Assembly (NCBI GenBank): GCA_018266845.1
Contig: JAFDZO010000027.1
Span: 1-64,000, forward strand
Origin: Bacteroidota bacterium
GTDB lineage: Bacteria; Bacteroidota; Ignavibacteria; Tepidaquicellales; Tepidaquicellaceae
Length of the DNA: 64,000 nt
Direction: 5' to 3'
Under the pieces are notes generated by a model. It saw nothing but the letters and a program-made list of their open reading frames with translations. It was not told where the DNA came from and searched no databases. How positions within the stretch are numbered: position 1 is the stretch's first letter; each line of letters begins with the position of its first letter. This document shows positions 31,549 to 63,423 of the stretch, piece after piece. The position numbers and the translations under genes were made by a program.

Positions 31549-31672
31549 TTTATTGTATAGTATTAAATTATTGGAATTAAATATTAGAACATTCAATTTA
31601 CAAATATCGTTTTACACATTAAAGGAAGAAGAAAATATATAGAAGAGAAGTTGCCCTAAATAAAACTGAACT

Positions 31673-31698
31673 CGTTACGAAGCTCCAGCTTCGTAACG
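31673..31698. repeat. CGTTACGA palindrome, near-identical to the dxs copy
   Basis: Twelve-base perfect arms, CGTTACGAAGCT and AGCTTCGTAACG, enclose two bases. It differs from 21006-21031 at one position. Confidence 0.85.
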
Positions 31699-31704
31699 TT
31701 TACC

Positions 31705-31730
31705 CGTTCCCACGCAGGAGCGTAGGAACG
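31705..31730. repeat. CGTTCC-type palindrome, copy 1
   Basis: CGTTCCCACGC pairs with GCGTAGGAACG with one mismatch around AGGA. It is identical to 32104-32129 except for one base. Confidence 0.8.
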
Positions 31731-31763
31731 AGGAAATAAAAAATTTTCTTTTCTTCTCCTTTT

Positions 31764-31800
31764 CACCGCAAAGATGCAAAGATTTAGCAAAGCCCGCAGA
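31764..31800 (+). repeat. Degenerate CGCAAAG-type tract, copy 1
   Basis: Three GCAAAG words within a CACCGCAAAGATG...AGCCCGCAGA context. Similar tracts lie at 32062-32097 (inverted) and 51314-51349. Confidence 0.5.
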
Positions 31801-31830
31801 GAAATTTTTATACAATATCCATTCATTTAA

Positions 31831-31883
31831 CTCGTTACGATGTGGAACATCCAGCTTTAGCGGGACTCCAGCGTCGTAACGAG
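31831..31883. repeat. Interrupted CGTTACGA palindrome
   Basis: CTCGTTACGA and TCGTAACGAG form ten-base outer arms. The interior of 33 bases contains CAGCTTTAGCGGGACTCCAG, which resembles the TCCCGCTTTAGCGG hairpin at 22629-22642, as if one palindrome had inserted into another. Confidence 0.65.
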
Positions 31884-31931
31884 AAAAAATCATTAGTCAA
31901 CTTTAATTAATACTTAATAGTTTTAACAGTA

Positions 31932-31953
31932 ACCCCATCCTTTAGGATGGGGT
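31932..31953. repeat. CCCC-type palindrome, copy 1
   Basis: ACCCCATCCT and AGGATGGGGT pair perfectly around TT. The layout CCCC-A-N-CC / GG-N-T-GGGG is shared with 32030-32049. Confidence 0.75.
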
Positions 31954-31997
31954 ATGAAGCTAACTAAGTTTTCCCTTTAGGGTAAAACAGATTATTT

Positions 31998-32011
31998 GAC
32001 CCTGAAGGGTC
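31998..32011. repeat. GACCCT short palindrome
   Basis: GACCCT and AGGGTC pair around GA. An imperfect GTTTTCCCT/AGGGTAAAAC hairpin lies just upstream at about 31969-31988. Confidence 0.5.
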
Positions 32012-32029
32012 TGCTTACAGTTCATTTGC

Positions 32030-32049
32030 CCCCAGCCTAAAGGCTGGGG
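32030..32049. repeat. CCCC-type palindrome, copy 2
   Basis: CCCCAGCCT and AGGCTGGGG pair perfectly around AA. Confidence 0.75.
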
Positions 32050-32061
32050 TTAATGCAAACA

Positions 32062-32097
32062 CTTGCGTGCTCTGCGAAAAACTTTGCGCTCTCTGCG
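32062..32097 (-). repeat. Degenerate CGCAAAG-type tract, copy 2
   Basis: The reverse strand reads CGCAGAGAGCGCAAAG and GCAGAGCACGCAAG, the same word family as 31764-31800 in inverted orientation. Confidence 0.5.
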
Positions 32098-32103
32098 TTT
32101 AAA

Positions 32104-32129
32104 CGTTCCTACGCAGGAGCGTAGGAACG
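32104..32129. repeat. CGTTCC-type palindrome, copy 2
   Basis: Perfect 11-base arms CGTTCCTACGC and GCGTAGGAACG enclose AGGA. Confidence 0.85.
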
Positions 32130-32148
32130 AGATAATAATAACTGAACT

Positions 32149-32174
32149 CGTTACGACGCTCTGGCATCGTAACG
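32149..32174. repeat. CGTTACGA palindrome, copy adjacent to DUF2905
   Basis: CGTTACGA and TCGTAACG form eight-base arms with a partly paired ten-base centre. The flanking AACTGAACT matches the flank of 31673-31698, suggesting that part of the left flank belongs to the mobile unit. Confidence 0.75.
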
Positions 32175-32200
32175 CAATCCAAATCTCATGTAAAAAAACT

Positions 32201-32425
32201 ATGGAAAATTTTAACGGAATAGGAAAAGCAGTTTTTATAATCGGCCTCATCATTGCGGGCATTGGACTTGTGCTTATGTTCTTCAACAAAATACCCTTCA
32301 TCGGAAAACTTCCCGGCGATGTTACAATCAAAAGGGAAAACTTCACTGTGTATTTCCCTATCGCAACATCTATAATTTTCAGCATAATCTTATCTTTGAT
32401 TTTTTATTTTTTAAGAAGGGAATAA
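32201..32425 (+). CDS. DUF2905 family membrane protein
   Basis: The 74-residue protein has two transmembrane helices separated by the family signature PFIGKLPGDVTIKRENFTVYFP and a short basic tail. I place the start at ATG 32201. A longer frame begins at 32063, but its first 46 residues translate the CGTTCC and CGTTACGA palindromes. The HIT gene starts two bases after its stop. The function of DUF2905 is unknown. Confidence 0.85.
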   Translation: MENFNGIGKAVFIIGLIIAGIGLVLMFFNKIPFIGKLPGDVTIKRENFTVYFPIATSIIFSIILSLIFYFLRRE

Positions 32426-32426
32426 A

Positions 32427-32819
32427 ATGGACTGCAAATTTTGTAAAATCGTAAGCGGTGAACTGAAGTGCTATAAATTGTATGAGGACGAAAATCATAT
32501 TGCATTTCTGGATATAAGTCCAATACAGGAAGGTCATTTTATGATAATTCCGAAAAAACACGGAGAATATATTTTTGACTTAGATGAAACCGAATATACG
32601 GAGATAATGAAGCTGGCTCGGATACTTTCCAAAAAATTAAAAGATGCAACAAAAGCAAAGAAGATAGGACTTGCCGTTGAAGGATTCGGCGAGACTCATC
32701 TTCATATTCATCTTATGCCGATAAATAAAGCCGGTGACTTAGATCCCTGCAAACACAAAAGAGCATCGGATGAAAAGCTAACCGAAGTATATAATCACCT
32801 CCTGCCATTCTTCAAATAA
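32427..32819 (+). CDS. HIT-family nucleotide hydrolase/transferase
   Basis: The 130-residue histidine-triad protein carries the catalytic HLHIHLMP motif (about 91-98) and an N-terminal CKFC pair that, with a later His, can bind zinc as in bacterial HIT proteins. It probably hydrolyses AMP-lysine-type phosphoramidates or related dinucleotides. It follows DUF2905 immediately and is the last gene before a palindrome-bearing spacer. Confidence 0.9.
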   Translation: MDCKFCKIVSGELKCYKLYEDENHIAFLDISPIQEGHFMIIPKKHGEYIFDLDETEYTEIMKLARILSKKLKDATKAKKIGLAVEGFGETHLHIHLMPINKAGDLDPCKHKRASDEKLTEVYNHLLPFFK

Positions 32820-32844
32820 AATTTCACTTAAGACAATTTACCCT

Positions 32845-32870
32845 CGTTCCCAACGTCCTCGTTGGGAACG
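32845..32870. repeat. CGTTCC-type palindrome, copy 3
   Basis: Perfect 11-base arms CGTTCCCAACG and CGTTGGGAACG enclose TCCT. It has the same arm length and loop length as 32104-32129 but a diverged stem, in compensating pairs. Confidence 0.8.
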
Positions 32871-33050
32871 TAAAATCCCACCTTCCTGTCAAGCAAATTT
32901 TACAAAAATTTACCTATTAGTAGTAATAGGCATGAATGAATTTGAAATGAATTTTTCGTTTATTAAATTTCGGAAGTTCTTTCAAATAATACCTGAGTTT
33001 TTAGCAAATTCACGAAATCTCTCGGATTTGTTAAAACAGCGCTTTAACTC

Positions 33051-33076
33051 AAAACTTACGAGGGGGCGTAAGTTTT
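33051..33076. repeat. AAAACTTACG palindrome, copy 1
   Basis: Perfect ten-base arms AAAACTTACG and CGTAAGTTTT enclose AGGGGG. A second copy with a complementary loop lies at 63256-63279, 30 kb away. Confidence 0.8.
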
Positions 33077-33210
33077 GGTATATGTTTTAACAAAATTTAA
33101 GGCGGGAAAAAATCGCTATCTTTTTCATGGCAATACTTCAAAAATAAGGTATCAATTTCTAAGGTTCTTATAATAAATTTAATGTGTAATTTTAGGTAAT
33201 TGCAGGCAGT

Positions 33211-63121: not shown

Positions 63122-63423
63122 TTTTGTTGAATTATTTAATGAAAAGCTTGAAAATATCAAATTTTTACTGTAGTTAAAATTGCAATATTTTGACCTTATC
63201 GCGCAAAAACTGACCGCTCCCAAATAGGCATAAATGCTTGATTTTCCATATAGCGAAACTTACGCTCCCTCGTAAGTTTTGATGTTAAATCTTTGTTTTT
63301 ATAATGATGAATTTTTCCTTGAAACTCAGATGCTGTAAAAATTCTAAATTTTTAACTTTCTTTTTATTCTTATTTAGACTAAGTTTAAATAAGAATTTCT
63401 TAAACTCCAAAAACAATCCAAAA
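63122..63423. other. Divergent intergenic region upstream of fumC and the right-edge gene
   Basis: This 302-base spacer contains the second AAACTTACG palindrome and an AT-rich hairpin TTCTTATTTA/TAAATAAGAA (63367-63395) 29 bases before the plus-strand ATG. Promoters for both genes should lie here. I could not fix a confident -33/-7 pair. Confidence 0.4.
63256..63279. repeat. AAACTTACG palindrome, copy 2
   Basis: Nine-base arms AAACTTACG and CGTAAGTTT enclose CTCCCT. The loop is nearly the reverse complement of the AGGGGG loop at 33061-33066, so this copy is in the opposite orientation. Confidence 0.75.

Follow-up and report, generated by a model that had tools for sequence, protein, structure and literature searches.

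The spacer between lpdA (minus strand, start codon near 31549) and a K+ channel gene on the plus strand (33211) holds a series of hairpins together with a DUF2905 gene and a HIT-domain gene. It is part of contig C19 of a 3.53-Mb genome in 46 contigs (G000, the own genome in what follows), and the window is the whole 64,000-nucleotide stretch of this contig that was analyzed. The hairpins of this spacer number ten to eleven, well beyond chance: a strict scan returned seven in 31549-33100, whereas 60 dinucleotide shuffles averaged 0.42 and never exceeded 3, and the window as a whole averages 0.73 per 1552 bp. An earlier note on this DNA had counted at least ten palindromes here; all those it named are present, and TTTTCCCTTTAGGGTAAAA at 31969-31987 joins them. 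The four hairpin families into which it had sorted them give way to two REP-like families and one unrelated element. By position, the features are:

31671..31698 (palindrome 31673-31698), plus strand: CT-tagged REP, CGTTACGA subtype, half 1 of inverted pair 1; CT followed by CGTTACGAAGCTCCAGCTTCGTAACG, loop CTCC on the plus strand
31705..31732 (palindrome 31705-31730), minus strand: CT-tagged REP, CGTTCC subtype, half 2 of inverted pair 1; CTCC loop and CT tag on the minus strand, 6-bp gap
31831..31883 (palindrome 31833-31881), no strand: long-loop REP, CGTTACGA-footed; about 23 nt with a AGCTTTAGCGGG-like hairpin take the place of the loop, and both strands have CT
31932..31953, no strand: CCTNNAGG-centered hairpin, CCCC type; palindrome and strict scan
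31969..31987, no strand: CCTNNAGG-centered hairpin TTTTCCCTTTAGGGTAAAA, missing from the earlier list
31998..32011, no strand: CCTNNAGG-centered hairpin GACCCTGAAGGGTC (GACCCT of the earlier note); palindrome
32030..32049, no strand: CCTNNAGG-centered hairpin, CCCC type; palindrome and strict scan
32104..32131 (palindrome 32104-32129), minus strand: CT-tagged REP, CGTTCC subtype, half 1 of inverted pair 2; C-/A+ pair, gap 19
32147..32174 (palindrome 32149-32174), plus strand: CT-tagged REP, CGTTACGA subtype, half 2 of inverted pair 2; C-/A+ pair, gap 19
32201..32425, plus strand: DUF2905 gene (Pfam PF11146); the same-genus relative is without DUF2905 here
32427..32819, plus strand: HIT-domain gene (Pfam PF01230), kept in the same-genus relative
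32843..32870 (palindrome 32845-32870), plus strand: CT-tagged REP, CGTTCC subtype, single, inner stem AACG/CGTT; genome pattern search and CT tag
32883..33144, plus strand: dispersed element of about 260 bp, not related to the REPs; core ACTTACGAGGGGGCGTAAGTTT (about 33053-33075)
33050-33077, no strand: CTTACG-type palindrome, inside the element at 32883-33144
63219..63311, minus strand: second window copy of the dispersed 260-bp element; model search

Copies across the genome were counted through pattern and model searches. The pattern CGTTNCNNNNCTCCNGNNNNGNAACG occurs 81 times in G000 and 30 times in a sister species of the same genus (G001), it is absent from the reversed controls, and a genome-wide pattern search recovered it in 25 of 59 relatives. 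The count that the earlier note had called for yields repeated families and not hairpins unique to this locus, with 27 genome-wide copies of CGTTACGA..TCGTAACG (reversed control 0), 42 of CGTTCC..GGAACG (control 3) and 10 of CCCCNNCCTNNAGGNNGGGG, the strict CCCC form (control 0). At 26 bp and 81 copies in G000, the first of these patterns agrees with the general definition of a REP, a palindrome of 20-40 bp with many dispersed extragenic copies. When 47 copies of G000 are oriented by their CTCC loop, the stem is preceded by a C in 46 and, directly at its 5' end, by a T in all 47, with no AG complementing these bases on the 3' side; the element is thus asymmetric and tagged. In its form, 5'-CT|CGTTNCNNNNCTCCNGNNNNGNAACG, a near-invariant unpaired CT abuts a covarying stem that closes on a CTCC loop. 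This differs from the unpaired GTAG or GTGG at the 5' foot that defines the GTAG superfamily, as the flank reads CT and its remaining positions are unconserved, and the flanks also lack the CGTC that is unpaired at one end of members of the CGTC superfamily. A literature search with the exact hairpin sequence returned unrelated primer-like coincidences only.

Wherever CGTTACGA and CGTTCC copies of G000 are neighbors with a gap of less than 30 bp, they are inverted (7 of 7 close pairs), which is the arrangement of a REPIN or BIME, two inverted REPs at short spacing; long alternating arrays are also found in a genome of the same family (G010) and in G013. The CGTTACGA and CGTTCC types are partner subtypes, the two halves of one REPIN system. 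The REPs of the window comprise the REPINs 31671-31732 and 32104-32174, the long-loop variant 31831-31883 and the single copy 32843-32870. Throughout G000 the REPs are clustered, with 37 pairs within 1.5 kb where about 1.3 would be expected, and local tandem arrays exist at C2:229093 and C10:19132. The clustering exceeds random expectation, but the case for the insertion hot spot of the earlier note is weaker than that note had it, since part of the clustering comes from inverted pairs and from local duplication in tandem. About six long-loop REPs are present in G000, among them 31831-31883, and they break the tag and loop rule; they may represent nested insertions or a third, separate REP subtype. 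These copies (31831-31883 in the window, as well as L188, L189, L190, L191 and L192) measure 45-50 nt, of which 19-24 nt at the loop position contain a second hairpin, for instance TCCCGATAAAATCGGGA.

As the earlier note stated, the window itself contains no RAYT gene, and the four Y1_Tnp loci of G000 all lie outside it. One of them, L003 on contig C11, is an intact RAYT of 178 aa with preserved HuH and Y motifs, surrounded by CGTTCCC- and CGTTGCT-subtype hairpins, about 14 in all, so that a RAYT with matching flanking hairpins, the other companion sought by that note, does exist elsewhere in the genome. In the NCBIfam model NF047646 (REP-associated tyrosine transposase, cut-off 80 bits), L003 scores 105, L004 116 and the RAYT of G010 (L186, contig C100) 103.5 bits; all three also carry HuH and the catalytic Tyr and are RAYTs (TnpA-REP) on both counts, and L002 stays just under the cut-off (79.5 bits). 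HxH and Tyr are invariant in the RAYT alignment. L186 sits within an alternating CGTTACGA(+)/CGTTCCC(-) array. L003 and L186 are both REPtrons, RAYT genes with cognate flanking REPs; the flanks of L003 are CGTTCCC/CGTTGCT and not CGTTACGA, and the link between CGTTACGA and a RAYT rests on G010. In a class relative, the RAYT L067 is flanked by a hairpin nearly identical to 32843..32870 of the window. The idea of REP/MITE-like elements akin to those moved by RAYTs is thus supported with regard to the REP-like nature of hairpins and the existence of a matching RAYT, and fails for the CTTACG hairpin, which belongs to the 260-bp element. Two observations accompany these loci. L002 (contig C15) and L004 (contig C7) are further RAYT loci of G000, each with its own flanking hairpins, whose stems differ and whose TCC/GGA center is mostly kept. 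Beside the REP array of G010, a short tandem repeat (L186 8634-8999, on contig C100) encodes SRTSELF / AKEFGRP-like units.

The two congeners differ in the REPs they carry. In G001 the orthologous spacer (lpdA ... HIT ... K+ channel) contains none of the window hairpins and no 260-bp element, and its homology to the window ends near 31635, which answers with a presence/absence polymorphism the comparison of the lpdA-DUF2905 spacer that had been suggested. The array of G000 at C10:19.1-19.5 kb is likewise missing from the orthologous spacer of G001, and a third spacer holds a single REP in G001 versus a REPIN and a CCCC hairpin in G000. REPs have been gained or lost between congeners; as even this nearest relative has diverged to 75-82% in the flanking genes, a difference may reflect loss there instead of gain here. 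Genes turn over in the spacer too, with DUF2905 (32201-32425) swapped for a different ORF in G001 (L123).

Such polymorphism bears on two other explanations. Immobile transcription terminators or mRNA 3'-end stabilizers, selected locus by locus, would also be expected in intergenic positions like those of our palindromes, and REPs elsewhere were reported mainly downstream of genes (PMC3733652). Yet this function accounts poorly for near-identical sequence at unrelated loci, for a CT fixed on one side only, for hairpins missing at two orthologous spacers, for arrays that surround RAYT genes and for 3' flanks devoid of a conserved T-run, and we regard it as very improbable. A different possibility is that the REPs are relics of a domesticated RAYT that no longer mobilizes them, the copies being inherited, locally duplicated and lost. 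RAYTs have indeed been described as domesticated transposases (PMC8266576), and diverged stems and the local tandem arrays at C2:229093 and C10:19132 are in line with such a history; the different copies of the two congeners and the intact catalytic core of the RAYT are not, and this makes the relic scenario unlikely to our mind.

The stems themselves are kept paired. In 36 distinct REP copies from relatives, 96.7% of the stem cells pair, and 49 cells show double changes as opposed to 16 in shuffles, a signal that collapses when the stem partners are slid. The covariation is limited to the inner stem, the only informative part since the search pattern in part dictates the foot and so also contributes to the invariance of the foot CGTT/AACG and of the loop. 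In the window, the two CGTTCC copies at 31705 and 32104 differ by one base and a third differs with its pairs preserved, just as had been described. Quasi-palindrome correction by template switching during replication is an established process, and it could explain the covariation as well as selection does. If it perfects the hairpins neutrally, neither selection nor transposition is needed for the pairing, and a covariation confined to the inner stem, next to an unvarying foot and loop, would suit it. As it leaves the dispersal, the CT tag and the RAYT link unexplained, we lean against it as the full account, possible as it is; template switching and mobility may also act together. The suggestion that selection or transposition keeps the fold is consequently supported by the strong covariation and weakened insofar as palindromes can correct themselves through template switching, so that conserved pairing need not imply selection.

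REPs and REPINs with RAYTs of the GTAG superfamily were reportedly described by Nunvar in 2010 and by Bertels and Rainey in 2011. Our system shares with them (Di Nocera 2013, PMC3733652) the short extragenic palindromes, the inverted pairs and arrays, a RAYT flanked by the same repeats and an asymmetric 5' tag, but differs in the CT directly at the foot, in the conserved CTCC/TCT loop and in GTAG-reading residues that are not conserved. E100, H101 and R104 of E. coli TnpA-REP are reported to read GTAG (PMC6006769), and none of the three is conserved in our RAYTs when these are aligned with that protein (4er8), in agreement with REPs that lack GTAG. A similar type is TnpA-Y1 subclass 2.6 (Bertels group 5), described as mostly from Bacteroidetes (Quentin 2018, PMC6006769): it likewise has a RAYT, about 179 aa long, with NHxH, WQ and YIHxNP, and 'atypical' flanking hairpins with genomic copies. 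On motif comparison only, the subclass has NH[LIV]H, WQ and YIH[QN]NP, the RAYT of G010 NHFH, WQ and YIHNNP, and that of G000 NHFH, WQ and YIHYNP. Unlike this subclass, the relatives found here span at least eight phylum-level groups. IS200/IS605 elements likewise employ a HUH/Y1 enzyme acting on single-stranded DNA hairpins, but our RAYTs score under the family cut-off (19.7 and 25.9 bits in NF033573, cut-off 55 bits), and the only IS200-like sequence among the Y1 loci of G000 is a remnant.

The breadth of this hairpin type was seen in a public genome collection, where CGTT/CGCT-footed palindromes accompany 39 of 80 RAYT loci and none of 19 control loci, and where 68 of 71 oriented units at the RAYT loci carry the CT tag; half of the 80 loci are without a CGTT/CGCT foot. 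Judged by record titles, the hosts include Ignavibacteria, Balneolota/Salinibacteraceae, Planctomycetota, Desulfobacterota, Pseudomonadota, Chloroflexota, Calditrichota and Hydrogenedentota, and the clade's RAYTs carry the same CT-tagged hairpins in eight or more phylum-level groups.

Altogether, these data make a well-supported case for a real REP/REPIN-RAYT system of a CT-tagged type that shares a permissive spacer with a second palindrome family and a genus-specific repeat. Very probably, the six hairpins within 31671-32174 and at 32843-32870 that carry the REP designation above are one family, comprising two REPINs, one long-loop copy and one single copy and likely spread by a chromosomal RAYT, the four CCTNNAGG hairpins being a second family and the CTTACG hairpin part of a different repeat. 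From the observed repeat family with its inverted pairs, covarying stems, tag and loop, together with the cognate RAYT loci and the presence/absence polymorphism, we infer that this RAYT moves these copies, and with it a cut position, a strand and a link to replication. The chromosomal RAYT (TnpA-REP), a HUH/Y1 single-strand endonuclease, would recognize the folded hairpin as single-stranded DNA, for example on the lagging-strand template, probably via the CTCC/TCT loop and the stem. It would then cleave at C|T abutting the 5' foot, and the released hairpin or hairpin pair would be joined to another CT elsewhere. In this manner copies could spread in trans to tolerant intergenic spacers, at times multiplying in tandem. 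The TnpA-REP enzymes of E. coli, S. maltophilia and Marinomonas cut REP single-stranded DNA at CT, the C|T site lying next to the REP (PMC8266576). The foot CT is therefore the obvious candidate for the cut site here, by analogy, as both the GTAG guide and the residues that read it are absent here. A RAYT clade with GTAG-less, CT-footed and CTCC/TCT-looped hairpins offers a direct test of the roles of guide and loop in cleavage-site choice, and it renders a hairpin family across many phyla interpretable. The biochemistry of TnpA-REP has been built on GTAG-tagged proteobacterial REPs.

The second family is a small one. Both CCCC hairpins, GACCCTGAAGGGTC and TTTTCCCTTTAGGGTAAAA (31932-32049) have the center CCTNNAGG in common, and on their sequences the CCCC, GACCCT and TTTTCCCTTTAGGGTAAAA types can be grouped around it. 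These hairpins represent another dispersed palindrome family, which has come to lie in this spacer as well. The IS200-like transposase remnant of G000 (L001, contig C33, 97-aa open frame) is flanked by CCACGCCTTTTAAGGCGTGG hairpins, which bear a resemblance in sequence to the CCCC-type palindromes of the window.

The CTTACG hairpin is the conserved core of the element of about 260 bp at 32883-33144 and not a REP. Whole-genome model searches put its copy number at 54 in G000 and at 38 in G001, whereas 38 other relatives had none, and the exact 23-mer core is absent from the GTDB collection, from which the own genome and records very close to it may be missing. Across roughly 200-260 bp, full-length copies share about 70-77% identity, the core ACTTACGAGGGGGCGTAAGTTT is nearly invariant, and essentially all copies examined lie between genes. 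Several functions were considered and rejected. A structured RNA found no plausible Rfam match (Rfam gave none over the window) and the core has double changes in 0 of 5 pairs; as there is no covariation and a few G001 copies break the stem, the core hairpin is not the conserved feature. In-frame stops in many copies and invariant third codon positions in the core speak against a protein-coding element, and neighboring genes on either strand (18 vs 16), functionally diverse in appearance, against a promoter or riboswitch. A preference of REPs for its 5' side (9 vs 2 of 36) was set aside given the larger intergenic space there.

We tentatively suggest, as a minority option, that the element represents a novel kind of functional site, dispersed in a single genus and confined to it, which would act either as a sequence-specific DNA site or as a transcript in its own right, and not as a riboswitch, promoter or simple MITE; it may have started out as a mobile sequence whose core later came under constraint. 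It constitutes an unexplained conserved repeat, restricted to one genus and open to testing. Like MITEs and other intergenic repeats it is short, intergenic, multi-copy and limited to one genus, but unlike MITEs it has a nearly invariant core, unclear terminal repeats and target duplications, and some copies at orthologous sites in G000 and G001, one pair being orthologous on both sides and two further ones on a single side.
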